Source of the DNA: Bacteroidota bacterium
GTDB lineage: Bacteria; Bacteroidota; Bacteroidia; Chitinophagales; Chitinophagaceae
Direction of reading: 5' to 3'
DNA: 42,520 nt
Assembly: GCA_963169885.1 (NCBI GenBank)
Contig: CAUJFR010000130.1
Coordinates: 1 to 42,520, forward strand
Every line of letters begins with the position of its first letter. Positions within the stretch are counted from its first letter, which is position 1. The translations under genes and the position numbers were made by a program. Shown here piece by piece: positions 8,078 through 28,270 of the stretch. A model generated the notes under the pieces. It did not search any database and was not told where the DNA came from. It saw nothing but the letters and a program-made list of their open reading frames with translations.

Positions 8078-9139
8078 ATGTTAAAAATATTCATCACTAC
8101 GTGTATGTTGCTGTCCGGCAGTCTGGTTTATTCTCAGACCGCGGTACACACGATTGTTGTGCCGGTTGATAGTGCCGATTTCTTTTTACAAAAAGGATTA
8201 ACGGAAAAGCAAAATGGCCGGCGAATGGAGTCCCTCAAAAATTTTGAGAAGGCAGTCCGTTACGATTCAAGCAGCAAATCCATCATTACTGAACTGGCAT
8301 CCGCCTATCATGATCTGCGGAAATACAACAATGCCCTGGTCATGTACAAACGCCTGATTGAAATGGGCGAAGAAACACCTGCTCTGTATAAACAAGTCTT
8401 GCAGCTTTGTTTCCAGATGAAGCAAAATGAAGAAGTGGTGAAATTTGCCAGCCGGTTGAAAAAACTGGATCCTTCGGAGAAAATCAGTTTCTATGTTGGC
8501 AAAGCCAATTACGAAATGGAAAATTACGGGGATGCACTCAAAGCTTTAAATGAAGCAGCAAAAGAAGATCCGGCCAATGCTGAAATACCGTATATGATCG
8601 CCCGCAGTTATGCGGACATGATGAATTACAAACTGGCGGTGCCTTTCTTTAAGAAAGCGATTGAACTGGATCCCAAACAAAGCTATTGGGTCTATGAACT
8701 TGGGCTGATCTGCTATGCGATGCATGATGACAAAAATGCGCTGAAGTATATCCTTGAAGCGGCCGATAAAGGGCACAGACGCGATAACGAATACCTGGAA
8801 AACCTGGCCATTGCCTACCTGAATGTGGGACAACTGGACTCCGGTGTGGCCATGCTCAATGAGATCCTGAAAAAAAGGCCAAGTGACATGAATATCCTGA
8901 ACATGGTGGCTGAAGCGTTTTATTACAAAGCCAAATATGATCAGGCCATGGAATACTGGGATCGGGTGCTCGAATACGACAAGGAAAACGCCACCGCCCT
9001 TTATATGATCGGCATGTGCTACCAGAAAAAAGGCGGACGGGAGAATACCGATAAAGGAATCACCCTCTGCGATAAAGCCATTGAACTCGACCCAAGCCTC
9101 GCAAATCTGAAACAGAAGAAGATGATGGCGGGACTCTAG
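8078..9139 (+). CDS. Tetratricopeptide repeat protein
   Basis: 353 aa; signal peptide plus serial TPR-like helices (e.g. AEIPYMIARSYADMMNYKLAVPFFKKAIELDP). Confidence 0.85.
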   Translation: MLKIFITTCMLLSGSLVYSQTAVHTIVVPVDSADFFLQKGLTEKQNGRRMESLKNFEKAVRYDSSSKSIITELASAYHDLRKYNNALVMYKRLIEMGEETPALYKQVLQLCFQMKQNEEVVKFASRLKKLDPSEKISFYVGKANYEMENYGDALKALNEAAKEDPANAEIPYMIARSYADMMNYKLAVPFFKKAIELDPKQSYWVYELGLICYAMHDDKNALKYILEAADKGHRRDNEYLENLAIAYLNVGQLDSGVAMLNEILKKRPSDMNILNMVAEAFYYKAKYDQAMEYWDRVLEYDKENATALYMIGMCYQKKGGRENTDKGITLCDKAIELDPSLANLKQKKMMAGL

Positions 9140-9178
9140 TCGGGAGTCGTGAGTCAGGAGTCGGGAGTAAACAGCCCC
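9137..9178 (+). repeat. Stop-anchored heptad block A: TAGTCGG GAGTCGT GAGTCAG GAGTCGG GAGTAAA CAGCCCC
   Basis: 7-nt period; first heptad starts with the TPR-protein stop codon (9137-9139); runs in phase into CAGCCCC. Confidence 0.85.
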
Positions 9179-9234
9179 TTCTTAGAGAATTTATTATATA
9201 ATTTGCTTTTTTTCTGTTAAATAACATATCAATT

Positions 9235-9268
9235 AAAAATGCCACCGATAACTGGTGGCATTTTTTTT
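9235..9268. terminator. Intrinsic (probably bidirectional) terminator between convergent TPR gene and argS
   Basis: Stem ATGCCACC-gataact-GGTGGCAT, A-rich upstream and T tract downstream. Confidence 0.8.
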
Positions 9269-9325
9269 ATTGATTATTCAAATATTTCACTGGTTTTGAC
9301 ATAAGCCTGCTTTCTTCTGAACGTT

Positions 9326-9374
9326 GCGACTCCCGACTCCCGACTACTAACTCCCGACTACGAACTACTAACTA
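9326..9374 (-). repeat. Stop-anchored heptad block B: minus strand TAGTTAG TAGTTCG TAGTCGG GAGTTAG TAGTCGG GAGTCGG GAGTCGC
   Basis: Exactly seven 7-mers; the first begins with the argS stop codon TAG (9374-9372). Confidence 0.88.
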
Positions 9375-11144
9375 CATTCTCTCAGGCACCCGTATTCCCA
9401 GCAATCCCATCGCCGAAGCAATCACATGGGCCGTCATTTCAGATAATTTTAAGCGCAATTGTTTTTTGGCTTCAGTCTCCGCAGTCAGCACATGGTGTTC
9501 GGTATAGAAGGAACTGTACAACTTTGCCACGCCAAAAATAAAGATGGCCAGTAAAGAGGGATTATGCTCTGCACAGGCCTGTTCGATTACATTCGGGTAT
9601 TGTTCCAGGGTAACGATCAGTTCCTTTTCCAGTTTCAGCAGATCGCCGGTATAAGCCGTTTCCGACGGTTTTTCCTTGCGCAGAATCGATTTGATCCGGG
9701 CATGAATAAACTGAATAAAAGGCCCGGTGAAGCCGTGAAAATCGATGGATTCTTCCGGATTGAAGATCATTTTTTTCTTTGGATCCACGCGTAGCAGAAA
9801 GAACTTAAGGGCGCCAAGTGCAATGGTATCATAGAGTCCTTTCAGTTCGTCTTCACTGAAGTCTTTTACCTTACCCAGTTCTTCCGTTTTGGCTTTTGCC
9901 ACATTGGCCATTTCTTCCACAATATCATCGGCATCCACTACGGTTCCTTCCCGGCTCTTCATTCTTCCTGAAGGAAGTTCCACCATGCCATAACTCAGAT
10001 GATGAATACCTGCTGCATAGGGCTTGCCCAGTTTTTGCAGGATCAGTTTCAGCACCTTCATATGATAATTCTGTTCATCTGCAATCACATAAATACTCTG
10101 GTCATAGCTGAATTCTTCATATTTCTGCTCGGCCAGTCCCATATCCTGGGTGATATAAACAGAAGTGCCGTCTTTCCGCAGTACCAGTTTTTCATCCAGC
10201 CCGTCTTCCGTCAGGTTGATCCAAACGCTGCCATCCTCTTTTTTATAGAACACACCTGTTTTAAGTCCATCTTCCACAAACTGCTTACCCAACAGGTAGG
10301 TATTACTTTCGTAATACATTTTCTGAAAATCCGCACCAATCCGGGTATACGTGGCATCAAAACCCGCATATACCCAACCGTTCATTTTCGCCCAGAGCTC
10401 CATGACGTCCGGCTTTCCCGCTTCCCATTCCAGCAGCATTTGCTGTGTGGCTTTCATAACCGGGGCTTCTTTTTCGGCTTCTTCTTTCTTCATACCGCCT
10501 TGTATAAGTACTTCTACCTGGCGTTTGTATTCGTCATTGAATTTTACATAATAATCTCCTACAAAATGATCGCCTTTAAGCCCGGTTGAAGCAGGAGTGG
10601 CCCCGTCAGCAAAGAGTTGCCAGGCAATCATACTTTTACAGATATGAATGCCCCGGTCGTTTACGATGCAACTTTTAATAGTATCATAGCCGGCTTCCTG
10701 GTGAATCCGGGCTATACTCCAGCCAAGAAAAATATTCCGCAGGTGACCCAGGTGTAGGGGTTTATTGGTGTTAGGGGAGGAGTACTCCACCATTACTTTC
10801 TTTCCGTTAGGGGCTTTCTTACCAAATGACGGGTTATTGTATTGCTCCTGCAATACGCTCAGCCAGTAAGCGTCGGTGATGGTTAAGTTTAAAAAACCCT
10901 TGATCACATTGTATGCACTGAATAATTCCGGGTGACGCTGAACCAGTGAAGTACCGATTTCCTGTCCCAGCTGTTCCGGTGATTTTTTTAGTTGTTTGAC
11001 AAAAGAGAACAGGACAAGGGTATAATCCCCTTCAAATTCGGGTTTGGTCGTGCTGATAGTCAGCTCGCCTTCTGTAAAAGCCTGTCCGTAAAGGTCAGTC
11101 AGTGTTTCTACGATCAGTGGTTTTATCTTGCTTACGATGTTCAT
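9372..11144 (-). CDS. argS: Arginyl-tRNA synthetase
   Basis: MNIVSKIKPLIVETL start (16th residue of the supplied ORF); VEYSSPNTNKPLHLGHLRNIFLGWSIARI class I signature; C-terminal LLGIRVPERM. Confidence 0.94.
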   Translation of the reverse strand: MNIVSKIKPLIVETLTDLYGQAFTEGELTISTTKPEFEGDYTLVLFSFVKQLKKSPEQLGQEIGTSLVQRHPELFSAYNVIKGFLNLTITDAYWLSVLQEQYNNPSFGKKAPNGKKVMVEYSSPNTNKPLHLGHLRNIFLGWSIARIHQEAGYDTIKSCIVNDRGIHICKSMIAWQLFADGATPASTGLKGDHFVGDYYVKFNDEYKRQVEVLIQGGMKKEEAEKEAPVMKATQQMLLEWEAGKPDVMELWAKMNGWVYAGFDATYTRIGADFQKMYYESNTYLLGKQFVEDGLKTGVFYKKEDGSVWINLTEDGLDEKLVLRKDGTSVYITQDMGLAEQKYEEFSYDQSIYVIADEQNYHMKVLKLILQKLGKPYAAGIHHLSYGMVELPSGRMKSREGTVVDADDIVEEMANVAKAKTEELGKVKDFSEDELKGLYDTIALGALKFFLLRVDPKKKMIFNPEESIDFHGFTGPFIQFIHARIKSILRKEKPSETAYTGDLLKLEKELIVTLEQYPNVIEQACAEHNPSLLAIFIFGVAKLYSSFYTEHHVLTAETEAKKQLRLKLSEMTAHVIASAMGLLGIRVPERM

Positions 11145-11177
11145 TTCGGGTGCTTTGGGTAGCAAATTTACGGGTTT

Positions 11178-11309
11178 ACAAGTTGACAAGTTTAGCGGTT
11201 AACTAGTTAAAAAGTTGAAAAGTTGACAAGGAACAGCCCACCCTTATTAACTTGTAAACTTTTCAACCTGTCAACCTGTTAACTTGTCAACCTGTTAACT
11301 TGTCAACTT
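11178..11309. repeat. Octad repeat element C: imperfect palindrome of 8-mers around ACAGCCCA
   Basis: Continuous 8-nt phase: acaagttg acaagttt agcggtta actagtta aaaagttg aaaagttg acaaggaa cagcccac ccttatta acttgtaa acttttca acctgtca acctgtta acttgtca acctgtta acttgtca; left and right arms are complementary in type. Confidence 0.82.
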
Positions 11310-11330
11310 TACTGCTTCCCCCTACCTTTG
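11300..11330 (+). promoter_or_regulatory. Candidate Bacteroidota promoter for the GtrA gene: TTG (11300-11302) N20 TACCTTTG (11323-11330)
   Basis: Matches the TTG-N19-21-TAnnTTTG consensus; the -7 box ends 6 nt before the ATG at 11337. Confidence 0.6.
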
Positions 11331-11336
11331 CGACTC

Positions 11337-11849
11337 ATGCGAAAGCACCTCCATACAGCCAGGGATTTTATCCTTCCCGTTATCGATTTCTTCTACCCCC
11401 CCTTCCGGCGGTTTATGAACCTTCAGACTTTCCGGTATGCGGCTTCAGGTGGTGGCAATGTGCTGTTGGGTTTTCTGATTTATACCCTCAGTTACAAGTT
11501 TTTATTTTTCGGGGAGGAGTTCGATTTTGGCTTCTATGCGTTTAAAGGACACGTGGCGGCGTTATTTGTTTCATTCTGTATTACTTTCCCGATCGGCTTC
11601 TTTATGTCGAAATATGTGGTCTTCAATGATTCCAATATGAAGGGGCATATTCAGCTGTTCCGGTATTTTATGGTTTGTATGTTTAACCTCGCCCTGAATT
11701 ACCTCTTACTTAAAATTCTGGTTGAACGGCTGGGAATGGATGCCATTCTCTCCCAGGTGATAACCATTGTGGTGGTGGTGGTGATCAGTTACCTGGCACA
11801 GCGGAATTTTTCATTTAAAGCTACCGCTGCAAATGATGATGAGGAGTGA
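11337..11849 (+). CDS. GtrA family membrane protein
   Basis: Four TM-like segments; RYAASGGGNVLLGFLIYTL and SYLAQRNFSFK end typical of GtrA. The supplied ORF starts at a TTG (11328); ATG at 11337 preferred. Confidence 0.8.
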   Translation: MRKHLHTARDFILPVIDFFYPPFRRFMNLQTFRYAASGGGNVLLGFLIYTLSYKFLFFGEEFDFGFYAFKGHVAALFVSFCITFPIGFFMSKYVVFNDSNMKGHIQLFRYFMVCMFNLALNYLLLKILVERLGMDAILSQVITIVVVVVISYLAQRNFSFKATAANDDEE

Positions 11850-11856
11850 TTTCCCT

Positions 11857-13287
11857 TTATAAACTCAGTTTTCCGGCATCCACTTTTACCTGCAGATTTC
11901 CTTCACAATTACTACGGATCACCAGGTGTTGTTGCATCGGGTACATCCGGATCAGGCGGATTTCATTGATGGTGCCATTGCTGCTGATGCCCGGCATCCA
12001 TTCCTGGTTAAGCTGCGTATTGATTGTTACTTTAGCACTGTCGATATACCCACCCAGTTCGAAACGGGCAAATTTCGTTATTTCCCGGGTGATTTTTTTG
12101 TCAAACAGCCAGCCGGCGGACCCCAGTAAAAAATTTTTTGTCTTGATATCGAAATCCAAATTGATGATCTCAATAACCCGTTTGTCCGCATCATACCATG
12201 GCTGCCCGGTCAGGTAGATCACTCCGTGGTTGGTTCCCGAAAAATGCAGCCGGATGATCAGTTTGTCAAAACCGCCACCGTAAATTTTACAGCTATCGAT
12301 GATAAACTGCTTTTTGACAAAAGCTTTTTTAAAATCAAAACTTTTACCGGCCACCTGTTGGCTCATGAGCTGACTGAGCGAGTCATAATTCAGCATGGCA
12401 TCGAGGAAAATAGTAAAACCCGGACGGGTGGCTACATTACTGATATGCGGTACCGGGGAAGGACTGTCTACCGGCTGCTCAAAACTGATGATCGGTCTGG
12501 CAGATAGTCCCAGAGAAACATAGAGTGAATCATTTTTGGCTTCCAGCCGGTTCAGGTGAACCGCCCGAGGATTCATTTTCAACCAGCCTAAGCCATAAAG
12601 GTTATAGGAAGTGTTCAGTTGATTCCAGATTTGCTGCATCCGGGGCTTCAGGTCGGTACTGCCATAGTTTTTATCGAGGTCTTTTTTTGCGGCATCCAGT
12701 TCGGCTACAAGGCCCTTCATGACCTGGTTGGTAATATTCTGTCCCCAAAAGCATACTTCACATTTGTCAACTGGTTGCGGTTCATTCCGTTTAATATCCA
12801 GTTTTACTTTATAATTGGTCATCAGGGCCAGGCTGTTGCTGAATGACACATTCACTTTTCGTTCCGGTTCATCAAAACCACAACGACAGGGTGGTGTCCA
12901 GGGCGTCAATGCAATTCCGTTGGTGCAGGCCCGGGTGGAACCCACAATTTTGTAATAGCCTGTAAAGCCAAGTTGCAGCGAAAGCCCGCTGGCCTTCATC
13001 TGCAGTTTGCTCCGGCGGAAGGAATATTTATACCGGGTATCACAGGCTTCCTGCACCCAGCCATTCGGATAGCCGGGAGAAGTAAATAAGGTGTCGACCG
13101 ACTTTTCGGCCATGGTATAAATGGGTTTCAGATCAATCTGAATAGGAATGTTCAATTCAGAATCAGGCAATGAATCCAACCGGAAATTTCCCGGCGAAAG
13201 ATCGGGATTGGCCGGATTGATCCGCTGGGCCATTAATTGGGTAAAACTGCAAAGGAGAATAAAAAGGAGGAACCGTATTTTGTTCAT
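11857..13287 (-). CDS. DUF4403 family secreted protein
   Basis: MNKIRFLLFILLCSFTQLMAQ signal peptide; ALMTNYKV.., CEVCFWGQNITNQVMKGL, LNLDFDIKTKNFLL resemble DUF4403. Confidence 0.65.
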   Translation of the reverse strand: MNKIRFLLFILLCSFTQLMAQRINPANPDLSPGNFRLDSLPDSELNIPIQIDLKPIYTMAEKSVDTLFTSPGYPNGWVQEACDTRYKYSFRRSKLQMKASGLSLQLGFTGYYKIVGSTRACTNGIALTPWTPPCRCGFDEPERKVNVSFSNSLALMTNYKVKLDIKRNEPQPVDKCEVCFWGQNITNQVMKGLVAELDAAKKDLDKNYGSTDLKPRMQQIWNQLNTSYNLYGLGWLKMNPRAVHLNRLEAKNDSLYVSLGLSARPIISFEQPVDSPSPVPHISNVATRPGFTIFLDAMLNYDSLSQLMSQQVAGKSFDFKKAFVKKQFIIDSCKIYGGGFDKLIIRLHFSGTNHGVIYLTGQPWYDADKRVIEIINLDFDIKTKNFLLGSAGWLFDKKITREITKFARFELGGYIDSAKVTINTQLNQEWMPGISSNGTINEIRLIRMYPMQQHLVIRSNCEGNLQVKVDAGKLSL

Positions 13288-13349
13288 GGCTGATGAGTGC
13301 CACAAATGTAGAAAAAGAAAACAGAAGGAATTGTGAAGAAATCAGTAAC

Positions 13350-13418
13350 AAGCGAGAAGCAAGAAGCAAGAAGGGAACAGCCCCAAAAGCCAGTCGGGAG
13401 TCGGTAGTCGGGAGTCAA
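13350..13418 (+). repeat. Heptad blocks D1 and D2: aagcgag aagcaag aagcaag aagggaa CAGCCCC, then cagtcgg gagtcgg tagtcgg gagtcaa
   Basis: Two adjacent 7-nt repeat tracts of different flavour; D1 runs in phase into CAGCCCC; D2 is followed by ACACCTTCTTAGGAGG. Confidence 0.82.
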
Positions 13419-13477
13419 TACACCTTCTTAGGAGGTTGAATCTAAAATCTCAAACTGCTACTTGTTTTACATACTGC

Positions 13478-13585
13478 CCTTGTCACCCTGCTTGTCCCGC
13501 CTAATGCGGGGAGTAGTCCCGCAAGTGTAATTTTTCAGGGTTTGTGAGAATATTTATGCGGGACGTATCGAAGGGTCGTACTTCT
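13478..13585. repeat. REP/MITE-like palindromic intergenic element
   Basis: CCCTTGTCACCCTGCTTGTCCCGC ... GCGGGACGTATCGAAGGGTCGTAC imperfect inverted ends with internal GCGGGG and TCCCGC. Confidence 0.5.
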
Positions 13586-14234
13586 AGCCTCGTACTTTTT
13601 CGCTGAGTTTCTCCATCATTCCCTCTACCCGTTTCACCCGTGTTTCTTCTTTTTTCGCCGTTACAATCCATTCGAGATATTCTTTTTTATGCGTGAAGGC
13701 CAGGTGATTGAAATACGCCAGCAGGGCTTTGTTTTTTTTCAGCGCAGCGGCTACATCCGGCGGCAGTTTCACTTCTTTGGTAGCCGGATTGACCCAGTTG
13801 AAAATTTCACGCGTTTCTTTGGGTTTGGCGTCTTTCATTTTATCGGCTTCGGTCTTACCCCTGAACCCGAAGACAGACCAGGTAGAATCAAAAGAGATGA
13901 GGTTGATCCAGGTCAGTTTATCTCCCTCAGCCAGCAGGCAATCCCATCCTTTGTCACGGGTAAGATCGGTCTGAATGCCGGATGTGCCTTTGGGATAATA
14001 AACCCAGACCGTTACCCCAGGACTGACCAGTTTCATGACCTTGCTCAATTCTTTTTCCAATTGTTCCCGGTTGGTCACAAACCAGTGTACCTGATCTGCC
14101 GCCACCCCCTTATCCATGATTTTTACCCCCTCCGGCAATTTTCCCAGGGTCTTTTTAAAATCCGCCGGGGCATGCAGAGTGAACAGGCGGAAGCCGGGTT
14201 TGATGCGGAGCTTATCGGCAAGTGGTGTAGACAT
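13584..14234 (-). CDS. YdeI/OmpD-associated (OmdA-like) family protein
   Basis: C-terminal FNWVNPATKEVKLPPDVAAALKKNKALLAYFNHLAFTHKKEYLEWIVTAKKEETRVKRVEGMMEKL. Confidence 0.75.
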   Translation of the reverse strand: MSTPLADKLRIKPGFRLFTLHAPADFKKTLGKLPEGVKIMDKGVAADQVHWFVTNREQLEKELSKVMKLVSPGVTVWVYYPKGTSGIQTDLTRDKGWDCLLAEGDKLTWINLISFDSTWSVFGFRGKTEADKMKDAKPKETREIFNWVNPATKEVKLPPDVAAALKKNKALLAYFNHLAFTHKKEYLEWIVTAKKEETRVKRVEGMMEKLSEKVRG

Positions 14235-14240
14235 GGGGAC

Positions 14241-14280
14241 TTGGTTGATAGGTTGGTAAGTTGACAGGTTCACAAGTTAA
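14241..14280. repeat. Octad tract: ttggttga taggttgg taagttga caggttca caagttaa
   Basis: 8-nt period, same AACYTGTY-type unit (minus strand) as element C; immediately upstream of the 13584-14234 gene start. Confidence 0.7.
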
Positions 14281-14361
14281 AAGTAAAATGTAAAAAGGTG
14301 AAATTGACCCTTTTTCCCTGTTCACATTTCCCCTCAACCCCCAATTTCTTATGATAAATCT

Positions 14362-14396
14362 GACTACGAACTACTAACTCCGAACTACGAACTTCT
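14362..14396. repeat. Heptad tract: gactacg aactact aactccg aactacg aacttct
   Basis: 7-nt period; reverse complement is the same TAGTTCG/TAGTTAG flavour as block B. Confidence 0.78.
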
Positions 14397-14476
14397 TCAA
14401 AAGACTGCCATTTTTTCACCTCAGCCCCTCCCGGCACAATGATTGACAATAGATAGCGAACTCAAAAATTAGAATC

Positions 14477-16387
14477 ATGGGAAAGATCATAGGAATCGAC
14501 TTAGGAACCACCAATAGCTGCGTATCTGTAATGGAAGGCAACGAGCCGGTGGTCATTGCCAATGACGAAGGACGCCGTACAACCCCGTCTGTCGTGGCTT
14601 TTCTGAAAAATGGCGAACGTAAAGTGGGAGATCCCGCTAAACGTCAGGCTATCACAAACCCCCATAATACCATCGCTTCTGTGAAGCGTTTTATGGGCCG
14701 CCAGTTTGGCGAAGTGACAGAAGAAATCAGCCATTGGAGCTACAAAGTGGCAAAAGGTGACAATAATACCGTTCGGATTGACATAGATGGCAGACTGTAC
14801 ACCCCACAGGAAATCAGTGCCATGGTGCTTCAGAAAATGAAGAAAACAGCTGAAGATTACCTGGGTCATGAAGTGACCGAAGCGGTGATTACCGTTCCGG
14901 CCTACTTTAACGACGCTCAACGCCAGGCCACCAAGGAAGCGGGTGAAATTGCCGGTCTGACTGTCCGCCGGATCGTAAACGAGCCGACTGCTGCCGCCCT
15001 GGCATATGGCCTGGACAAGGCAAAACACGACCAGAAGATCGCCGTATTTGACCTCGGTGGTGGTACATTCGATATCTCCGTACTGGAACTTGGAGATGGA
15101 GTATTTGAAGTAAAATCAACCAATGGTGATACGCACCTGGGTGGAGATGACTTTGATAAAGTGGTCATGGACTGGCTGGCCGATGAATTCAAGGCCGATG
15201 AAGCCATTGACCTCCGCAAAGATCCTATGGCCCTGCAGCGCCTGAAAGAAGCCGCTGAGAAAGCCAAAGTGGAACTGTCATCTTCTTCAGAAACAGAAAT
15301 TAATCTGCCTTATATCACCGCGGTAGATGGTGTGCCGAAACACCTGGTGAAAAAACTGACCCGTGCCAAATTTGAAGCACTGGCCGATAATCTCTTTGCC
15401 CGTTGCCTGAAGCCCTGCGAAGCCGCATTGAAAGATGCCGGTCTGAAAACTTCAGAGATTGACGAAGTGATCCTGGTGGGCGGTTCTACCCGTATCCCCA
15501 AAGTACAGGAGATCGTGGAAAAATTCTTCGGCAAGAAACCTAACCGTGGCGTAAACCCGGATGAAGTGGTGGCCGTTGGCGCCGCTATTCAGGGTGCCGT
15601 TTTAACTGGTGAGGTGAAGGATGTGCTGTTGCTCGACGTAACTCCGCTCTCCCTTGGTATTGAGACCATGGGTGGCGTTATGACCCCGCTGATCCCCAGC
15701 AATACCACCATCCCGACCAAGAAATCAGAAGTGTTCTCGACAGCCAGCGACAATCAGCCAGGTGTACAGATCCATGTACTGCAGGGTGAACGTAGCATGT
15801 CGAAAGACAATAAGAGCCTCGGTATTTTCAATCTCGATGGTATTCCCCCGGCTCCCCGTGGTGTACCCCAGATCGAAGTAATCTTTGATATTGATGCCAA
15901 TGGTATCCTGCATGTAACCGCCAAGGACAAAGGCACCGGAAAGGAACAAAAGATACATATTGAAGCTGGTTCAGGTCTGAGCAAGGAGGAAGTGGAAAAA
16001 ATGAAAGCTGAAGCCAAGGCCAATGAGGCAACCGATAAAGCCGAAAAAGAGAAAGTGGAAAAAATGAACCAGGCGGATAGTCTTGTTTTCCAGACTGAAA
16101 AGCAACTGAAAGAATACGGGGATAAAATCCCGGCAGATAAAAAAGGCGCTATTGAACAGGCTGCGGAGAAACTGAAAGAAGCCCATAAGGCACAGGATCT
16201 CGCCGGTATCGACACCGCCATGGCCACCCTCAATGCTGCCTGGACGGCCGCCAGTGAAGACATGTACAAATCCACCCAGGAAGGCGGGGCACAACCCGGT
16301 CCTGACGGCGGGGATCATGCGCACACGGCAGATGCGAATGCCAGTGCGGATAATGTGACGGATGTGCCGTATGAGGAGGTAAAGTGA
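14477..16387 (+). CDS. dnaK: Molecular chaperone DnaK (Hsp70)
   Basis: [42 protein letters not shown]; 636 aa full length. Confidence 0.98.
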
Positions 16388-16419
16388 TAAGTTGTAAGTA
16401 ATAAGTTATAAGTAAGAGC
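16385..16419 (+). repeat. Stop-anchored heptad block J: TGATAAG TTGTAAG TAATAAG TTATAAG TAAGAGC
   Basis: 7-nt period beginning at the dnaK stop codon TGA (16385-16387), leading into the terminator stem. Confidence 0.75.
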
Positions 16420-16445: not shown

Positions 16446-16479
16446 AGCAGTGCCTGGCGCAGCCGACGCTGCGAAATAC

Positions 16480-20020: not shown

Positions 20021-20667
20021 AAGTAATTATAAGTAAGAAATTCATTCAGACTGAGCAATTTCATGTCCGCCGCCCCCCATTTCGGAAGATCCGCCTGTTC
20101 AGGTGCCGGTACCACCACACATTTCATCTTGGCGGCTTTTGCTGCGATCATTCCATTGAACGAATCTTCAAATACAATACAATCTTCGGGTAACACGTCA
20201 AGCGATTTGGCACATTCCAGGAAGACCATCGGATGTGGTTTGCCATAGGGGAGGTATTCGGCGGACGTGAAAACCTGGAACTGATCCCGGATATGTAGTT
20301 TATCGACTACTACATCTACCAATGACATAGGGGAAGATGTCGCTAATCCGGTTCTTATATTTTGCTTATTGAAAAAGCCAAGAATCTCCGTAACACCAGG
20401 CAAAGCAATGCCATTAGCTGCAATTTTTTCAATCGCTTTGCGGATTATCACCTGAACTGCTTCCGGTGCATGTGCAGGAGAAACCTGGTACTGCCTGAAC
20501 CAATGCGCCACCCATTCTTCCGTACGAAGTCCTGTGCTGGTATGGTATTGTTCAAGGGTCAGACTGATTCCAAATCCGGAGAGCGTCTCAATCCCGGCTT
20601 CCTGCCAGAGGGGCTCACTGTCTATCAGCAAACCATCCATATCAAAAATCGCCGCTTTGTATTGCAT
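20017..20667 (-). CDS. HAD superfamily phosphatase, HxpB/beta-phosphoglucomutase-like
   Basis: AAIFDMDGLLIDSEPLW, GLATSS, KPHPMVFLECA, CIVFEDSFNGMIAAKAAKM HAD motifs. Confidence 0.88.
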   Translation of the reverse strand: MQYKAAIFDMDGLLIDSEPLWQEAGIETLSGFGISLTLEQYHTSTGLRTEEWVAHWFRQYQVSPAHAPEAVQVIIRKAIEKIAANGIALPGVTEILGFFNKQNIRTGLATSSPMSLVDVVVDKLHIRDQFQVFTSAEYLPYGKPHPMVFLECAKSLDVLPEDCIVFEDSFNGMIAAKAAKMKCVVVPAPEQADLPKWGAADMKLLSLNEFLTYNYF

Positions 20668-20711
20668 CCTGCAAACTTTCATCAGTATATGCAGGTTTCC
20701 AAATAATCGGT

Positions 20712-21305
20712 TTACTTTTTCTTTTTCCCAAAGAAAATGCGGAAACCGACATTAAGGTTCAGTCCATGTGTATAGCCATTACCGCCGCCGGCTCCTCCAC
20801 CGGTATATGTCAGCTCCGAAAAGAGAGCGGTTCTGGGTCCTGTGAACCAGTTAAGGCCAACACCGCCAAAAGCAGTCCAATCACTGAATTTTGCGGTGGA
20901 TTTAAAACCACTGAAATCAGTGGTGGTCGTATTGGTCCGCATGTATTGTATACCGGCAACAAAATAGGGAACTACTTTATGTTTGGATTTCAGGTAATAC
21001 CGGGTGTACAGATTGAAGCCGTATGAGTTTCCCCGGCTGGAATAATTGAGATTGCCAAAATTGTCTTTGATATTCACTTTGTTGAAGTTGAGCACAGGTC
21101 CGCCACCCACTTCCCAGCGGTCTTTCAGCATATACCCGATATTCGGAGTGAATTTAAAATTGTAAGATTTGAAACGTTCTCTGGATTCAAAGTTAAGGTT
21201 AAAAGGAGCGTCTGTGGAAGTGCTGAGGTTCCAAGTGCCTTTCTCCAGCTGAGCAGAAGCTACGGAACAAATGAATAGCGGCAGAATGATCAGGATTGGT
21301 TTCAT
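20712..21305 (-). CDS. Outer membrane beta-barrel protein
   Basis: 197 aa, signal peptide, alternating barrel strands, FRIFFGKKKK end. Confidence 0.75.
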   Translation of the reverse strand: MKPILIILPLFICSVASAQLEKGTWNLSTSTDAPFNLNFESRERFKSYNFKFTPNIGYMLKDRWEVGGGPVLNFNKVNIKDNFGNLNYSSRGNSYGFNLYTRYYLKSKHKVVPYFVAGIQYMRTNTTTTDFSGFKSTAKFSDWTAFGGVGLNWFTGPRTALFSELTYTGGGAGGGNGYTHGLNLNVGFRIFFGKKKK

Positions 21306-21379
21306 GGTTTAATGTTTCCGCAAAACTATTTCCTGTTCTGTTAACAAAGAGTTGAACGAATGTTAAATCCACTCACCAT

Positions 21380-22051
21380 TCACTCCCTCACATCAAAAAT
21401 CGCTTCCCCCTCACTTCTGTCTTTTTTTGTATTGTACAAACGAATAATAACCCGGTCCTTTTTCGTAAGCTTAATCGTGTATTCTCCTCCTCCGTTTTTG
21501 ATTATCGTACCCTGTGATACCGTTACAAGCAGGTCTTCATCTTTAACTTTAAACGCTTTGATGGATACTTTGTTTTCCTTAGTGAGATAGAGTGCTCCGG
21601 GTGTTTCTGTTTCAATGTCCAGGCCTTCCACTTCCACCCGGAAAGTAACTGGTTGTTTCCGGTAGGCCCTGACCGGCCGACCTTTCTGTATCGCGGGAAT
21701 CCATTTGCCGGAGAGATGCAATGCCCGGATCACTTCCTGTTCCATACCATAGCCGTGATTCGTCAATGCTTTGAAATCAGTAATCGAACTATCCCGGTTG
21801 ACTATAAATTGTACCATAACGGTGTAAGTTCCGGCCGGGGCATTATTGTCCATTGGTACATCCCCTTTAACCGTTTTAGTCAGGAATTTCAACCAGGCTG
21901 ACGATCCGCCTGGGTAAGAAGCTTCCACTTCCACCCGTTCAAATTTTACTGTGCCGTCATTTTTGGTACTGTCATTTGCCAGGACCTGAGCATAAGAGCG
22001 GATAGAGAGGAAACTCAGCAAGAGAAAAGTAAATACGGGCCGCATTTTCAT
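21380..22051 (-). CDS. Secreted protein with TonB C-terminal-like (energy transducer) domain
   Basis: AGTYTVMVQFIVNRDSSITDFKALTNHGYGMEQEVIRALHLSGKWIPAIQKGRPVRAYRKQPVTFRVE. Confidence 0.72.
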   Translation of the reverse strand: MKMRPVFTFLLLSFLSIRSYAQVLANDSTKNDGTVKFERVEVEASYPGGSSAWLKFLTKTVKGDVPMDNNAPAGTYTVMVQFIVNRDSSITDFKALTNHGYGMEQEVIRALHLSGKWIPAIQKGRPVRAYRKQPVTFRVEVEGLDIETETPGALYLTKENKVSIKAFKVKDEDLLVTVSQGTIIKNGGGEYTIKLTKKDRVIIRLYNTKKDRSEGEAIFDVRE

Positions 22052-22147
22052 ACTGATAAGTTTTGGCCAAGATAGAAAATTTCTTTTTTTTCCTGATTGA
22101 TTTTAATCCGGACAAATCAAGCAGTACCTTGCAGGCAATAATTTTTT

Positions 22148-22540
22148 ATGGAAACAGAAATTTTCACCCTTTGCGATTTTGCGCAGGATAATCAATCCAA
22201 ACTCACCATCGTCGGCACGTTCGATAGTATTCAGGCTCCGCAGTTCCCGGTCACCCATCCCGGCTGTGCGATTGCCTGCCGCCTGCGTTTCGGGGTTAAA
22301 GAAACTGGTGATCATGAATTCAAAATTCAGCTGACAGACAGTACCGGCAAGGACCTGTTGCAGCCTGTTACCGGTGTCATTACTGTCCGGCCGCCGGTAA
22401 ATGGCCAGTTTGCGGCTGCGAATATTGTACTCAATTTTAATCAGCTCCAGTTTCCCCAACCTGGCCGTTATTCTTTTTCGCTGATGGTGGACGGGCAATG
22501 GGTGACCGGGCTGCCGCTGTTCCTGAATAAAATCGGTTGA
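22148..22540 (+). CDS. DUF6941-like conserved hypothetical protein
   Basis: METEIFTLCDFAQDNQSKLTIVGTFDSIQAPQFPVTHPGCAIACRLRF... SFSLMVDGQWVTGLPLFL. Confidence 0.6.
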   Translation: METEIFTLCDFAQDNQSKLTIVGTFDSIQAPQFPVTHPGCAIACRLRFGVKETGDHEFKIQLTDSTGKDLLQPVTGVITVRPPVNGQFAAANIVLNFNQLQFPQPGRYSFSLMVDGQWVTGLPLFLNKIG

Positions 22541-22603
22541 GTATCCGGTTGTCAGTGAATGTTAAATACGTTTTTATTATTTTTGGGCTGAAACCTTAAA
22601 TCT

Positions 22604-23632
22604 ATGAAGATGAGATTATCCCCCGGATTAATAAATATCCTTTTTGGTTCAATTTTTTTATTGCTGATTTTTATTTCTTGCACAAGAGAAGATGCCAGCC
22701 CTTCACTGGCAGGGGTGTATATGGTCGGTTATGAACGGGTTAACGCAATATCCGTTGCGAAGTATTGGAAAGATGGCACTGAATTTTCCTTAACAGATGG
22801 TAGTCGTCATGCATTTGCCAAGTCTGTTTTTGTGACTGATCAGGATGTATTTGTATGCGGGGAAGAATTCAACAGTGCGGGAATACGGGTGGCAAAATAC
22901 TGGAAAAACGGCCAGCCTGTTGAACTGGGAATCAATAGCTATGCAGAATCAATATTTGTTCATGGAAACGATGTTTATGTAGCCGGGGCTGAATATGCAA
23001 ACCCGAATATTATCCGGGCCGTCTATTGGAAAAACGGGATTGTTAACTATCTCACAACCGTATCCACCCAGGCTGAAGCCTGGTCAGTTTCAGTAGCGGC
23101 AGGGAATGTATATGTGGCAGGATGGGAGAAAGTCAATATACCATTTGTGCCACGGTATTGGAAAAACGGGACAGGATTCACGCTGGGAGGAGGCCCGATT
23201 TCTACCGGTTCGCTGAAAAGTGTCGCGATCGCAGGCACTGACGTTTACATGGCGGGAAATGAAAATACGGCAACTGTTTTTTCTCAGGCGGCATATTGGA
23301 AAAATGGCACCAAGACGGTTTTGGGGCCTTCAAATTCCGAGTCACAGGTAAATAGTATTTCTATATCCGGCGGGGATGTTTATGCGGCCGGGTATGAACA
23401 AACCGGGGGCATGAACTTTGCAGTTTATTGGAAAAACGGGGTGATGACCCGGTTGACTGATGGCAGTGAAGCGGCTACGGCCATGGATATTGAATCGAAA
23501 AACGGAGATGTTTATATAGCCGGCAGTAAAGGAGGCGCCATTCAAAACGCCGTTTACTGGAAGAATGGCACCCTGGTTCCATTGACCAACGGGGCTAATA
23601 ATTCCTATTGTTTGGGGATATTCATAAAATAG
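22604..23632 (+). CDS. Lipoprotein built of seven VYxAGxE...YWKNG repeats (predicted beta-propeller)
   Basis: Lipobox LLIFISC; seven ~42-45 aa repeats each with VYxAG and YWKxG. Confidence 0.75.
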   Translation: MKMRLSPGLINILFGSIFLLLIFISCTREDASPSLAGVYMVGYERVNAISVAKYWKDGTEFSLTDGSRHAFAKSVFVTDQDVFVCGEEFNSAGIRVAKYWKNGQPVELGINSYAESIFVHGNDVYVAGAEYANPNIIRAVYWKNGIVNYLTTVSTQAEAWSVSVAAGNVYVAGWEKVNIPFVPRYWKNGTGFTLGGGPISTGSLKSVAIAGTDVYMAGNENTATVFSQAAYWKNGTKTVLGPSNSESQVNSISISGGDVYAAGYEQTGGMNFAVYWKNGVMTRLTDGSEAATAMDIESKNGDVYIAGSKGGAIQNAVYWKNGTLVPLTNGANNSYCLGIFIK

Positions 23633-23736
23633 TATTTCCGCACGGAACGTAAATCGGAGATTACCTGTTTTTATTGCCAGTTAACGGACGTCTGGGCTGT
23701 CGCGAAGAATTTTTCACGTCTATTTCCCCAAACCTA

Positions 23737-23744
23737 TACTTTTG
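23737..23744 (+). promoter_or_regulatory. Candidate -7 box TACTTTTG upstream of speA
   Basis: TAnnTTTG match 43 nt upstream of ATG 23787; no clear -33 TTG seen. Confidence 0.4.
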
Positions 23745-23786
23745 TACGGTTTTAAGATTATCTGGCTCAACCCGTTCAACTAAAAA

Positions 23787-25187
23787 ATGACAAATTCCTA
23801 CCACGACCTCGTAAAGCAGACTTTTAATTTCCCCCAGGAAGGGATCGAAGTGGAAGATGGCAATCTTTCTTTCAATGGTCTTGACCTGAAAGCCCTGATC
23901 GCTAAGTATGGCACCCCGATGAAACTGACCTACCTGCCTAAGATCGGGATGCAGATTCAAAAGGCAAAGAGCATGTTTGCCAATGCATTCAAGAAACACA
24001 AGTACGAGGGTAAATATTATTATTGTTATTGCACAAAGAGTTCACATTTCAGCTTTGTGGTGGAAGAAGCCCTGAAAAACGAAATACACCTGGAAACCTC
24101 CTACGCATATGATATAGAGATCATCAAGAAACTCTATGCCAAGAAAAAGATCACCAAGGATATCCATATCATTTGCAATGGCTTCAAGGAAAAAAGCTAT
24201 ACCCGGCGTATCGCCAGTTTGCTAAACTCCGGTTTCAGCAATGTGATTCCGGTACTGGATAACAAGGACGAACTGAAGGACTATGCTCACTCCGTGAAAG
24301 TGCCTTTCAAACTGGGGATCCGGGTGGCAGCTGAAGAAGAGCCCAACTTCCCCTTCTATACCTCAAGACTGGGCATCAGGGCCAAGGACATCCTTGAGTT
24401 CTATGTGGATCGGATCGAAGGATATGAAAGCAAATTCCAGCTGAAAATGCTGCATATTTTCCTGAATAAAGGAATTAAGGATGATATCTATTACTGGAGT
24501 GAACTGAATAAAGTGATCAACCTCTATTGCCAGTTGAAAAAGATCTGTCCTGAATTGGATTCAATCAATATCGGCGGCGGGTTCCCGATCAAGCACTCCC
24601 TGGGGTTTGAATACGACTACCAGTTCATGATCAATGAGATTGTGCGCAATATCAAAGTGGCCTGTAAAAAAGCCAAAGTCCCAATGCCGAATATCTTTAC
24701 TGAGTTTGGCAGCTATACTGTAGGAGAGAGCATGGCGCACATTTATAGCGTAATTGCGGAAAAAGTGCAGAACGACCGGGAAACCTGGTATATGATCGAC
24801 TCCTCCTTTATCACCACGCTTCCGGATACCTGGGGAATCGGGGAAAAATTCCTGATGCTGCCGGTCAATAAATGGGACCATGATTATCAACGGGTGGTAC
24901 TTGGCGGTATCACCTGCGATAGCCACGACTACTACGATTCCGAAGAGCATATCAATGAAGTATTCCTCCCAAAGGTCAACGGGGACGGAGAACCTTTATA
25001 CGTAGGCTTTTTCCACACCGGAGCCTATCAGGACCAGATCAGTGGTTATGGTGGTATCAAGCACTGCCTGATCCCTTCACCAAAGCATATCATTGTGGGG
25101 CATGATAAAAATGGTAAGTTAGTGGACTGGGTTTATGCCAAGCAGCAAACGGCGCAAAGTATGCTGAAGATATTGGGATATAAATAA
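23787..25187 (+). CDS. speA: Arginine decarboxylase-like, PLP-dependent fold III decarboxylase
   Basis: YYYCYCTKSSHFSFVVEEALKN (PLP-lysine region), ELDSINIGGGFPIKHSLG, ITCDSHDYY. Confidence 0.88.
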   Translation: MTNSYHDLVKQTFNFPQEGIEVEDGNLSFNGLDLKALIAKYGTPMKLTYLPKIGMQIQKAKSMFANAFKKHKYEGKYYYCYCTKSSHFSFVVEEALKNEIHLETSYAYDIEIIKKLYAKKKITKDIHIICNGFKEKSYTRRIASLLNSGFSNVIPVLDNKDELKDYAHSVKVPFKLGIRVAAEEEPNFPFYTSRLGIRAKDILEFYVDRIEGYESKFQLKMLHIFLNKGIKDDIYYWSELNKVINLYCQLKKICPELDSINIGGGFPIKHSLGFEYDYQFMINEIVRNIKVACKKAKVPMPNIFTEFGSYTVGESMAHIYSVIAEKVQNDRETWYMIDSSFITTLPDTWGIGEKFLMLPVNKWDHDYQRVVLGGITCDSHDYYDSEEHINEVFLPKVNGDGEPLYVGFFHTGAYQDQISGYGGIKHCLIPSPKHIIVGHDKNGKLVDWVYAKQQTAQSMLKILGYK

Positions 25188-25214
25188 GCTAGAAGCGAGA
25201 GGATAGAAGTTAAA
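25185..25214 (+). repeat. Stop-anchored heptad block F-left: TAAGCTA GAAGCGA GAGGATA GAAGTTA
   Basis: 7-nt phase starting at the speA stop codon TAA (25185-25187). Confidence 0.7.
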
Positions 25215-25252
25215 AGCCAGATCACGAAAATCGAGATCTGGCTGTTTTTTTG
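25213..25252 (+). terminator. Intrinsic terminator of speA
   Basis: AGCCAGATC-N11-GATCTGGCT followed by a T tract. Confidence 0.82.
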
Positions 25253-25268
25253 ATAAATATTCTCAGGA

Positions 25269-25327
25269 GGGGCTGTTCCCTTCTAGCTTCTAGCTTCTCG
25301 CTTCTAGCTTCTCGCTTCTCGCTTCTA
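25269..25327 (-). repeat. Stop-anchored heptad block F-right: minus strand TAGAAGC GAGAAGC GAGAAGC TAGAAGC GAGAAGC TAGAAGC TAGAAGG GAACAGCCCC
   Basis: Exactly seven 7-mers starting at the stop codon TAG (25327-25325) of the minus-strand gene, followed by ACAGCCCC. Confidence 0.9.
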
Positions 25328-25699
25328 GCTATGCCGGCTATACCGTTTCCATTCCCTGATTTCAAACTTGCTGTACCGCGAGCGATCTACCTGGTTCTTA
25401 TCGAGGTAAAAGCGGTTGTCGAAACCTTTCCAGTAAAGTAGCCCCTGCTGTCCGCGATGAAAATAGTTTCCATTCGCATGTCGAGCCATGGTGAAACCAG
25501 GGTGAGGGGTAATGATAAGGGAAGCCCCGGCCAACTGATTATTGTATGAAGGTCTGGGTGCTGTGTGTTGACGGGAGACCGTGGGCGGACCGTCATTTCT
25601 TTTTTCTTTATTGGCCCAGACACGGCTGTGGCCACAACTGCTGAATACCAGTGCTGCAGTCAGCGCCAGTAGCGATGATAAAATAAATGTTCTTTTCAT
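25325..25699 (-). CDS. Hypothetical lipoprotein (124 aa)
   Basis: MKRTFILSSLLALTAALVFSSCGHS lipobox. Confidence 0.7.
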   Translation of the reverse strand: MKRTFILSSLLALTAALVFSSCGHSRVWANKEKRNDGPPTVSRQHTAPRPSYNNQLAGASLIITPHPGFTMARHANGNYFHRGQQGLLYWKGFDNRFYLDKNQVDRSRYSKFEIREWKRYSRHS

Positions 25700-25735
25700 G
25701 CATCTGATTTTTTATGGTGAGGAGATTGAGACTGT

Positions 25736-26077
25736 TTATTGATTATCCCGGGTTCGTTTGGTCCGTACCCCGCCACTGTTTCCGCTACGTTGTACAGGAA
25801 CCAGGGTATCGGTTGGCGTTTTTGCCGGACTATTCCCGGATTGGACGAGTATCACACTGTCAGTTGTTGTCACTGGTTTTGTTAAAGTAAGGACATCCGT
25901 ACCCGTACTCTCTTCATCCGGACCCAGAAACCGGACAGTCGTGGACGCTTGGCCGTTTGCCGGACCGGTCCGGGGGCCAAATACTTTACTGCTGTATTGT
26001 TTTCCCATCGCACAACTGGCGGCCATGGCCAGGATCAGCATGAGAATCACCGCTTGTAAAATTTTACTGGTTTGCAT
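25736..26077 (-). CDS. Hypothetical lipoprotein
   Basis: Internal ATG gives MQTSKILQAVILMLILAMAASCAMGKQYSS with lipobox; low-complexity Thr/Val/Asp tail. Confidence 0.5.
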   Translation of the reverse strand: MQTSKILQAVILMLILAMAASCAMGKQYSSKVFGPRTGPANGQASTTVRFLGPDEESTGTDVLTLTKPVTTTDSVILVQSGNSPAKTPTDTLVPVQRSGNSGGVRTKRTRDNQ

Positions 26078-26155
26078 GAGGAATGCCTTTATTTTAGTCC
26101 TGTGTACTTTTGTTATATCCAATTCATTTGCCATAAACTCTTAAAAAATGTTAGC

Positions 26156-26611
26156 ATGAAACAATTTTTCATAGTATTAACAGTACTGGCTTTCAGCATC
26201 AGCAGTAAAGCACAGACGGCCGAAGATTCGGTAAAAGCCGTGGTTACGAATCTTTTTACCGCGATGATTAAGTCTGATACCAGCTTGCTGAAATCCTGTT
26301 TTGCCGATAGTATGGTTTTGCAGACTATCGCCCGGGGTAAGAGCGGGGGAGCAGAAGTAAAAACTGAAACCGCCGCCACCTTTGTGAAAAGCATCAGTTC
26401 CCTGAAACCCGGGTCGGCCGATGAACAGATTACATTCGGAACGGTCCTCATCGATGGACCGCTGGCCCTGGTCTGGACACCCTACAAATTTTATTTCAAC
26501 GGACAATTCAGTCACTGCGGCGTCAACTCCTTTCACCTGGTCCGGTTCAAGGATGGGTGGAGGATTCAGTATTTGATTGATACGAGAAGGAGAACAGGAT
26601 GTGAAAATTAG
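26156..26611 (+). CDS. Secreted NTF2-like (SnoaL-like) protein
   Basis: MKQFFIVLTVLAFSISSKAQTAEDSVKAVVTNLFTAMIKSDTSLLKSCFADSMVL...ALVWTPYKFYFNGQFSHCGVNSFHLVRFKDGWRIQYLIDTRR. Confidence 0.85.
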   Translation: MKQFFIVLTVLAFSISSKAQTAEDSVKAVVTNLFTAMIKSDTSLLKSCFADSMVLQTIARGKSGGAEVKTETAATFVKSISSLKPGSADEQITFGTVLIDGPLALVWTPYKFYFNGQFSHCGVNSFHLVRFKDGWRIQYLIDTRRRTGCEN

Positions 26612-26650
26612 TCGGGAGTTAGTAGTTAGTAGTCGGGAGTCAGCAGCCCC
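26609..26650 (+). repeat. Stop-anchored heptad block G: TAGTCGG GAGTTAG TAGTTAG TAGTCGG GAGTCAG CAGCCCC
   Basis: Starts at the NTF2-like gene stop codon TAG (26609-26611); in-phase CAGCCCC. Confidence 0.9.
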
Positions 26651-26701
26651 TCCTTCGCATATTTTGCTAAATCAAAGAACTGATCTTTTTTTACGGGATT
26701 T

Positions 26702-26740
26702 GCAGGCCCCTATCCTGAAGGAGAGGGGTTGGGGTGAGGT
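26702..26740. repeat. Palindromic GC-rich dispersed-type repeat GGCCCCTATCCTGAAGGAGAGGGGTTGGGGTGAGGT
   Basis: CCCCT..CCT-ga-AGG..AGGGG hairpin followed by TTGGGGTGAGGT. Confidence 0.5.
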
Positions 26741-26745
26741 AAAGC

Positions 26746-26787
26746 TAGTCGGGAGTTAGTAGTTAGTAGTCGGGAGTCAACAGCCCG
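26746..26787 (+). repeat. Heptad block H: TAGTCGG GAGTTAG TAGTTAG TAGTCGG GAGTCAA CAGCCCG
   Basis: First 34 nt identical to block G, 137 nt downstream; not at a stop codon. Confidence 0.88.
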
Positions 26788-26844
26788 TTCTAAGTAGTAG
26801 TTTATAGTATGTGAAATTCTTATTCAACAAGAACTTTTAAAAGA

Positions 26845-26884
26845 AAGCACCAAACCTGCTTAGAAGGCTTGGTGCTTTTTTGTT
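26845..26884 (+). terminator. Intrinsic terminator
   Basis: AAGCACCAA...TTGGTGCTT followed by TTTT. Confidence 0.75.
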
Positions 26885-26951
26885 GTTTATATTTTGATTA
26901 TTCTTTGGATCTTGCTTGACCTCCGTAGCCTTGGCGAAGGAAGGGGAATAA

Positions 26952-26982
26952 AAAAATAGCCCTCCGTGGAAACGGAGGGCGT
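26952..26982 (-). terminator. Intrinsic terminator of hsp20 (minus strand)
   Basis: GCCCTCCGT-GGAA-ACGGAGGGC; minus-strand TATTTTTTTATT tail. Confidence 0.8.
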
Positions 26983-27026
26983 AAACCAAAACCAACTGCT
27001 TATGAGAAAAATTTGTATAAACTATT

Positions 27027-27470
27027 TTACTTTATTTCGATTGCCTGTGAAGCTTTGACTGTTACCTGCTTCGGAAGGTTTAATCGTAATATACCATTGA
27101 TGTAAGATGCTTCAATTTTAGTTGCATCTATTTTGTCATCCAATGTGAAAGATCTCTTAAAAGACCGGAAGCTGTATTCCTTGCGGATCTGCTTTTCGGT
27201 TTCGGATGTCTCAGTGGCCTGTTTTTCAGCTGAGATCGTGAGTAATTGCTGCTCCAGGTTCACCTTGAAATCGGCCTTTTCAAATCCGGGGGCCACTACT
27301 TCGAGTTCGTAACTCCCTGCTGTTTCTTTGACGTTTACCGGTACGGAATCCTTTCTTACAGAATTGTTAAAGCCATTGTTCAGCATCAATGGTAATTCAG
27401 TGAACAGGTCATCTACTAAATTGCTGAATGTTCCTTCAAAAGGTTTCCGGTTGAATTGTACGTATGCCAT
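27027..27470 (-). CDS. Hsp20/alpha-crystallin family small heat shock protein
   Basis: SVPVNVKETAGSYELEVVAPGFEKADFKVNLEQQLLTISAEK...SFRSFKRSFTLDDKIDATKIEASYINGILRLNLPK. Confidence 0.95.
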   Translation of the reverse strand: MAYVQFNRKPFEGTFSNLVDDLFTELPLMLNNGFNNSVRKDSVPVNVKETAGSYELEVVAPGFEKADFKVNLEQQLLTISAEKQATETSETEKQIRKEYSFRSFKRSFTLDDKIDATKIEASYINGILRLNLPKQVTVKASQAIEIK

Positions 27471-27686
27471 AATTGTTTAGTTTTTTAAATAAAAAATGAA
27501 TACGCAAGGGATTCGTCAAACCCTGTACCACCCGGTTTTTTATACCCGGACTGGCAGATTTGCCCCTTGCAGAAAGACAGAATTTCCGAAAAGAGGAATT
27601 TCTGCTGCCATATTTTCCTTTTGCCCATGCTGTTGCACAGCCGGTTGAACAAATTCTTTAGCTTTGTGTTTCATAAACAAAAAACT

Positions 27687-28103
27687 ATGTATCCAGAAGA
27701 AATAGTAATTCCGATGAAAGAGGAACTGACCGACAATGGCTTTTCCGAGTTGCTGACCGCTGGTGAAGTGGAAGCACAACTGACTAAAGAGGGTACCACC
27801 CTGGTCATGATCAATTCCGTTTGTGGCTGTTCTGCCGGAACCGCCCGTCCGGGTGTACTGATGGCGGTGGCAAATACCGAAAAGAAGCCGGATTTCCTGA
27901 CCACTACTTTTGCCGGTTTTGATGTGGACGCTGTGCGGACTCTTCGTATGCACCTGATGCCTTTTCCGCCGTCTTCCCCGGCCATCGCTTTATTTAAGAA
28001 TGGCCAGCTGGTACATTTTATTGAAAGACACCAGATCGAGGGCCGTTCCGCACAAATGATCGCCCAGAACCTGATCGGCGCTTTCCAGCAACATTGTAAC
28101 TAA
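27687..28103 (+). CDS. BrxA/BrxB family bacilliredoxin
   Basis: MYPEEIVIPMKEELTDNGFSELLTAGEVEAQL...NSVCGCSAGTARPG CGC motif. Confidence 0.93.
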   Translation: MYPEEIVIPMKEELTDNGFSELLTAGEVEAQLTKEGTTLVMINSVCGCSAGTARPGVLMAVANTEKKPDFLTTTFAGFDVDAVRTLRMHLMPFPPSSPAIALFKNGQLVHFIERHQIEGRSAQMIAQNLIGAFQQHCN

Positions 28104-28125
28104 ACGGATCAAATAGATTCTAAAG

Positions 28126-28156
28126 AGCTGTTTCTTTATTGAAACAGCTTTTTTTT
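28126..28156 (+). terminator. Intrinsic terminator of bacilliredoxin gene
   Basis: AGCTGTTTC-tttatt-GAAACAGCT followed by TTTTTTT. Confidence 0.88.
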
Positions 28157-28171
28157 GCCCCTTTAATTTTT

Positions 28172-28270
28172 AAGTACGAAGTACAAAGTACGAGGTACGA
28201 CTGACGTACCTTGAGCCATAAGTTCTTTGGAGGGGCTGTTCCCTAACACCTAACAGCTAACACCGAACAC
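28172..28270. repeat. Composite heptad element I: aagtacg aagtaca aagtacg aggtacg ... GGGGCTGT ... ccctaac acctaac agctaac accgaac
   Basis: Two 7-nt tracts of different flavour on either side of an inverted ACAGCCCC (28232-28239). Confidence 0.82.

Follow-up and report, generated by a model that had tools for sequence, protein, structure and literature searches.

The 42,520-nt stretch of DNA analysed here (the window) is contig C130 of a metagenome-assembled genome of a Chitinophagaceae bacterium (3.6 Mb, 494 contigs, 84% complete), and its spacers carry short tandem arrays of 7-nt or 8-nt units whose sequence (flavour) varies from locus to locus. Our main finding is that these arrays follow an invariant rule: the G-rich strand runs from the edge of a gene into the spacer, whatever the direction of that gene. 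Since this applies from each gene edge inward, the arrays occur as inverted pairs. We think, at roughly even chances, that they are small palindromic elements of one class, dispersed through the genome and with heptamer arms prone to slippage. A sequence-only reading of the window had described them as anchored at stop codons, with a shared architecture and a variable unit instead of one fixed repeat being dispersed. The second half of this description is borne out by the many flavours found under one rule. The idea of a stop-codon device is not, as the rule is one of polarity and inverted pairing, and applies also in divergent spacers and inside open reading frames (ORFs).

The statistics come from a 600-kb sample of this genome, made of contigs C1-C89 picked by number, blind to repeats, minus those contigs that repeat searches had named; contigs reached through such searches were handled separately. 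Genes were called by a simple codon-usage caller, whose stop positions are reliable and whose start positions are less so. By self-similarity, 69 noncoding tandem arrays have a 7-nt period and 17 an 8-nt one, while every other base period gave 0-2 (14 and 16 being counted as multiples), and arrays in coding sequence are few; shuffled sequence gave a constant 4-5 arrays per period, probably due to runs of N. Period 7 is thus dominant, and the median array is 4.4 units long. At most 30 nt separate 37 of 101 arrays from a gene 3' end, where 9.0 would be expected from the available spacer (P=2.4e-14), and the enrichment at stop codons suspected from the window is therefore genome-wide. At gene starts the excess is not significant (14 arrays vs 10.1 expected, P=0.13). 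The G/purine-rich strand is in sense in 32 of the 34 stop-side arrays with clear polarity, and the starts of sense arrays peak between -10 and +9 around the stop (26 of the 47 within -20 to +119). Genes with an array at the stop end in TAG in 11 of 27 cases vs 61 of 371 for the others (about 2.5-fold, Fisher P=0.004), which indicates that the array often supplies the stop codon. Another genome, G028, yielded only 5-7 arrays in 260 kb, too few for statistics.

Polarity was assigned by composition, R standing for the G/purine-rich strand and Y for the pyrimidine-rich one. Neighbouring arrays in the sample were R-Y in 48 pairs, Y-Y in 20, R-R in 11 and Y-R in none. Left-R and right-Y are in the majority in convergent spacers, in both kinds of tandem spacer and in divergent ones, so that polarity is independent of gene direction. 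The arms of one locus match better in flavour than permuted arms (12.0 vs 7.7, reached in 0 of 5000 permutations), despite the fact that more than half of the R-Y pairs have unmatched flavours; the gap between arms is 21-125 nt long (10-90% range). The same order is seen at 80 argS loci from other genomes of the family, with seven R-Y pairs and no Y-R pair, and with periods 7 and 8 present and 6 or 9 almost never found.

The flavours in this genome include AGTCGGG/AGTTAGT, AGAAGCK, GATGTCA, GGTGTTA, AAGTACG, AAAAGTA, AATGAGT and the 8-mer GTTGACAA. Several of them lead into AACAGCCCC..CTNAG, the half-palindrome (C)AACAGCCCCTYCTNAG stands 3' of several R-array flavours, and the 8-mer arrays are followed by CAAGG..TYCTNAG. 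The CAGCCCC noted in the window as the end point of the arrays is part of this half-palindrome ending in CTNAG; the claim that arrays run into it in heptad phase is correct for the AGTCGGG flavour and incorrect for the AGAAGC flavour (AAGG GAACAGCCCC). There are also hybrids, whose two halves differ in flavour and meet at CTNAG or close to it (window 28172-28271; L192:2863; L200:1668), and YCTNAGR occurs in 18 of the 48 gaps of R-Y pairs, where 1.4 are expected. The module GGAACAGCCCCTCC has 23 matches in its own genome (one mismatch allowed; reversed control 0), and mostly 0-3 in other sampled genera of the family, where the reversed control is of similar order. AGTYRGK arrays, on the other hand, were found in 89 of 399 genomes of the family and, phylum-wide, in 33 of 297, and their units come in dialects (AGTTAGT, AGTCAGG and AGTTGGT, for example). 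The arrays are therefore a general trait and the CAGCCCC piece a local one.

A few observations touch on these repeats from the side. Arrays of AGTYRGK with 3.5 units are present in 85 stretches of IMG/VR viral contigs (L323-L402), which may be phage DNA or host flanks. The Bacteroidota genomes G680, G632, G407 and G612 have many matches to the reversed control and none to the pattern itself, which suggests that they hold abundant repeats with other units of their own. Arm duplication on a larger scale is seen at L176:310-550, where a tandem duplication of about 71 bp is present in four copies, each with an AATGAGT-flavour array and with its end at a gene stop.

This genome has five in-frame arrays in genes of conserved proteins, and HisS, IleS, ValS and PdxJ are the proteins in which such arrays were seen. 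Those of HisS, IleS and ValS fall in variable loops, as judged from alignment with nine relatives. Loop 207 of ValS has palindromic R-Y inserts with unit GATGACA in G005, ACGTGAG in G028 and AAGTCAG in G323, and little or no insert in seven other genomes; loop 450 has further palindromic inserts. Six ValS inserts were tested, each about 55-80 bp long and with a unit that differs between genomes and sites: in all six the arms pair better than shuffles (each reached by 0-1 of 500 shuffles), and all six have G excess on the left and C excess on the right. Such in-frame inserts exclude a purely translational-stop role, and, with sites empty in other species, they are the best evidence that the sequences offer for insertion. 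We also considered that a genome-wide dialect is copied into genes; the ValS array of G294, however, is the sole match of its pattern in its own genome, which speaks against any simple dialect rule. Another short palindrome, CCTGCC..GGCAGG, occurs in frame in PdxJ of G323 (L418), where it interrupts a heptamer array, and in HisS of G028 (L416), and looks like another small dispersed palindrome. The latter HisS has a 41-residue insertion and an altered neighbouring region relative to its relatives, without periodicity of 7 or 8 nt.

Orthologous sites differ in their arrays. The ArgS protein ends in PERM* (once PQRM*) in 81 of 81 genomes, and the sequence 3' of it varies, from a terminator alone in some to R-Y arrays in various flavours in others. 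Arrays flank terminators at this site in the window, L065, L067 and L072. A single ancestral array at argS was rejected on the one resolved comparison, in which L072 has one and its supported sister L086 does not. At the convergent site of a gene ending in SRFDD*, arrays of several flavours are present in 5 of 11 readable genomes, with the protein end fixed; the 8-mer array ATGAGTGA is common to L087, L089 and L118, in differing numbers of units.

If these are palindromic elements, each would have a short centre, often YCTNAGR and sometimes a terminator, flanked by two arms. An arm would hold some four degenerate tandem units of 7 nt (or 8 nt), with the G/purine-rich strand in the 5' arm and the pyrimidine-rich one in the 3' arm. 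New copies would come about when an arm pair, or one half, is inserted or copied into a spacer or, with the reading frame kept, into a protein loop that tolerates it. Slippage and unequal exchange would then make the arms longer, shorter or more uniform, with flavours changing as a result, and the arms would extend as far as the adjacent coding sequence. A purine-rich array of heptamers often has stops in all three frames, since neither 7 nor 8 is divisible by 3, and a gene with its end reached by an arm would thus simply stop within the first units. The arrays contain 313 stop codons vs 286 in column-shuffled units (a number reached by 61 of 1000 shuffles); their stop content is thus not above that given by composition, and the anchoring at stop codons is probably a by-product. 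Mobility, an enzyme responsible for it and slippage as the source of arm turnover are what we infer from these patterns.

Several results weigh against this explanation and should be acknowledged. Many copies are half-elements. No target-site duplication was found, in a comparison that had no close empty site at the DNA level, and the PdxJ array seems to have arisen by substitution, with length unchanged. All-against-all comparison of the masked spacers at array loci found other repeats and no common core, unlike a normal miniature inverted-repeat transposable element (MITE), so that a single MITE family with a conserved core was rejected. No partner transposase was found: the RAYT/Y1 transposase was tried as mobiliser, but Y1_Tnp loci are not flanked by arrays, and genome G179 has 39 array matches and no member of that family. 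Finally, the ATGAGTGA array of L087, L089 and L118 looks inherited, not inserted.

A scenario without mobility is, in our opinion, a serious competitor, though one that is probably wrong: chance duplications of 7 or 8 nt would expand by slippage in place, nucleated at hairpins or terminators and halted by selection at gene edges, the inverted partner being made by quasi-palindrome copying. Flavours that differ between species, unit number and order that vary among arrays at one orthologous site, and the terminators flanked by arrays at argS are all as expected from it, and a polymerase-footprint account of heptamer excess was proposed earlier (in work cited in PMC4692102). The scenario does not predict, however, a one-sided polarity, the recurrence of one unit and half-palindrome at dozens of loci per genome, or compact palindromic inserts in ORF loops. 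A gap hairpin as nucleator was rejected, as gaps alone fold no better than controls. The same folding result counts against an RNA function, which we find rather improbable, and in which the R-Y pair would be a selected 3'-end hairpin or a bidirectional transcription boundary, with its structure kept and its sequence free. Arrays are indeed commonest in convergent spacers (24 of 60, with 71 of 303 in tandem and 13 of 95 in divergent ones) and strongly enriched at 3' ends, whole elements have better folds than shuffles do (median z -2.6), and the Xanthomonas repeats are frequent start or end points of transcripts (PMC4692102). This is hard to reconcile with a polarity that persists in divergent spacers and inside ORFs, with the poor pairing of the pairs with unmatched flavours, or with the absence of arrays at many orthologous sites.

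Two more specific functions fare worse. We consider it very improbable that the arrays are frame-independent translational stop cassettes, in which every unit would bring a stop and the 7- or 8-nt period would spread the stops over all frames. The R strand does have stops in all three frames in 48 of 93 arrays, and TAG is enriched at array-bearing genes, but both stop number and three-frame coverage equal those of column-shuffled units, and arrays also occur in frame inside ORFs and at gene starts; moreover, a survey of bacteria reported no evidence that additional 3' stops are selected for (PMC6764699). The KAR-N4 pattern that the sequence-only reading saw in the units does exist, but as a rule of its own it dissolves into purine-rich, C-poor units containing T, with no more stops than column shuffles have. 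We give even less credence to G-quadruplex elements of the kind proposed for Xanthomonas and Nostoc. The placement and the number of about four units are alike (PMC4692102), but four GGG tracts occur in only 4 of 101 arrays and four GG tracts in 21 of 101, which rules out a quadruplex as the general explanation.

The window offers examples of most of these arrangements. The TPR gene (8078-9139) ends in the TAG at 9137 that opens an AGTCGGG-flavour R array (9137-9185, plus strand), reading TAGTCGG GAGTCGT GAGTCAG GAGTCGG GAGTAAA and then CAGCCCC in phase, as part of the half-palindrome CAGCCCCTTCTTAG. Its inverted partner, of the same flavour, starts at the argS stop (TAG, 9374-9372) and occupies 9327-9374 on the minus strand; a terminator-like hairpin lies between the two. 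At 25262-25330 (minus) the half-palindrome CTCAG-GAGGGGCTGTTCCC and an AGAAGC-flavour array give the stop of the lipoprotein gene 25325-25699 (25327-25325); their inverted partner is a degenerate AGAAGC-flavour R array at 25190-25216 (plus). An AGTCGGG/AGTTAGT R array at 26609-26654 (plus), whose first unit is the stop of an NTF2-like ORF (26609-26611), runs in phase into CAGCCCCTCCT, and a second copy of it, 90% identical, is followed by CAACAGCCCGTTCTAAG (26746-26794, plus). The stop codon is thus the first three bases of a unit in these four genes, as had been claimed, but not in dnaK, where an R array of TAAGTTA flavour (16381-16415, plus, followed by an intrinsic-terminator-like hairpin) overlaps a TGA stop (16385-16387) that is the end of the unit AAAGTGA. 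At speA the degenerate array (25190-25216) begins 2 nt past the stop. Arrays also lie away from stops (11163-11309, 13346-13416, 14363-14393 and 28172-28271): an R-Y pair of GTTGACAA-flavour 8-mers around GGAACAGCCCACCC in a divergent spacer (11163-11309); an AGAAGC-flavour R array followed by GGAACAGCCCC (13346-13373, plus) and an AGTCGGG-flavour one followed by CAATACACCTTCTTAGGAGG (13391-13434, plus); a Y array, AGTTAGT on the minus strand, in the spacer 5' of dnaK (14363-14393, minus); and a hybrid R-Y element with a left arm of AAGTACG flavour, GGAGGGGCTGTTCC and a right arm of GGTGTTA flavour (28172-28271). A second dispersed repeat family of this genome, built from phrases of the CACGAAAGG / CACGGAT type over tens to hundreds of bp, 75-85% identical and on both strands, is independent of the heptamer arrays (L171:953-1408, L151:7376-7720, L177:4942-5922, L142:11292-11724).

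The cyanobacterial short tandemly repeated repetitive (STRR) heptamers are likewise dispersed heptamer arrays, but with a few fixed units, and we know of no polarity rule for them. There were no Rfam matches in the window at gathering scores, and a literal search of the literature for the present units found none. Among known systems, the closest are the GGGAATC and GGGGA(C/T)T heptamers of Xanthomonas and Nostoc (Rehm et al. 2015, PMC4692102), with about four units and inverted pairs in convergent orientation. They are rare in ORFs and fewest between divergent genes, have the G-rich strand in sense near stops and in antisense near starts, are closer to the ORF on their 5' side irrespective of its direction and overlap stop codons; quadruplex formation was shown in vitro and no function was found. 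Tandem heptamers, about four units, R-Y polarity, inverted pairs and placement at the ORF edge are common to both. Here, however, the units are not of GGGNATC type (AGTCGGG, AGAAGCK, AAGTACG, AATGAGT, AAAAGTA, GTTGACAA and others), many coexist in one genome, they are mostly not quadruplex-capable, and flavours change between species. The shared architecture was thus known, and what is new is unit diversity, period 8, the CTNAG half-palindrome and the in-frame palindromic copies in conserved enzymes. It is possible, although we rather doubt it, that all belong to one cross-phylum class defined by architecture and not by sequence, that is, palindromes with 7/8-nt tandem arms and strict purine-to-pyrimidine polarity, which a single process would make and spread (an enzyme, say, that writes or copies short tandem units at hairpins), with the Xanthomonas GGGAATC repeat as a single-flavour case.

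Other resemblances are more partial. The TAACTGA repeats of Beggiatoaceae, Cyanobacteria and some Bacteroidetes (MacGregor 2015, PMC4679880) are, like ours, intergenic heptamer arrays with stops, there viewed as forward-frame stops limiting gene overlap, but they have a fixed unit, are found for the most part right before start codons in the Beggiatoaceae genome and almost never form inverted repeats, whereas our units vary and are enriched on the stop side. A review (PMC10969869) describes the Rickettsia palindromic elements as inserts tolerated in frame in metabolic genes, as in ValS here; these are conserved-sequence families of about 150 bp without heptamer arms. MITEs and the repetitive extragenic palindromes and mosaic elements (REP-BIME) are also small, dispersed, inverted repeats in spacers, and the arms here likewise pair above permuted arms and shuffles, but no core is conserved across flavours and no association with a transposase was found.

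Descriptions of bacterial heptamer repeats have so far each dealt with a single sequence and given it an account of its own (quadruplex, regulator binding, slippage). The presence of many units in one genome under a single rule of placement and polarity, also inside essential genes, argues that the architecture, and not the unit, is the conserved trait. The quadruplex account becomes testable in this setting, and is disfavoured, and a simple reason can be offered for the anchoring at stop codons. Finally, the presence/absence sites in the aminoacyl-tRNA synthetases can be used to follow the gain and loss of arrays.

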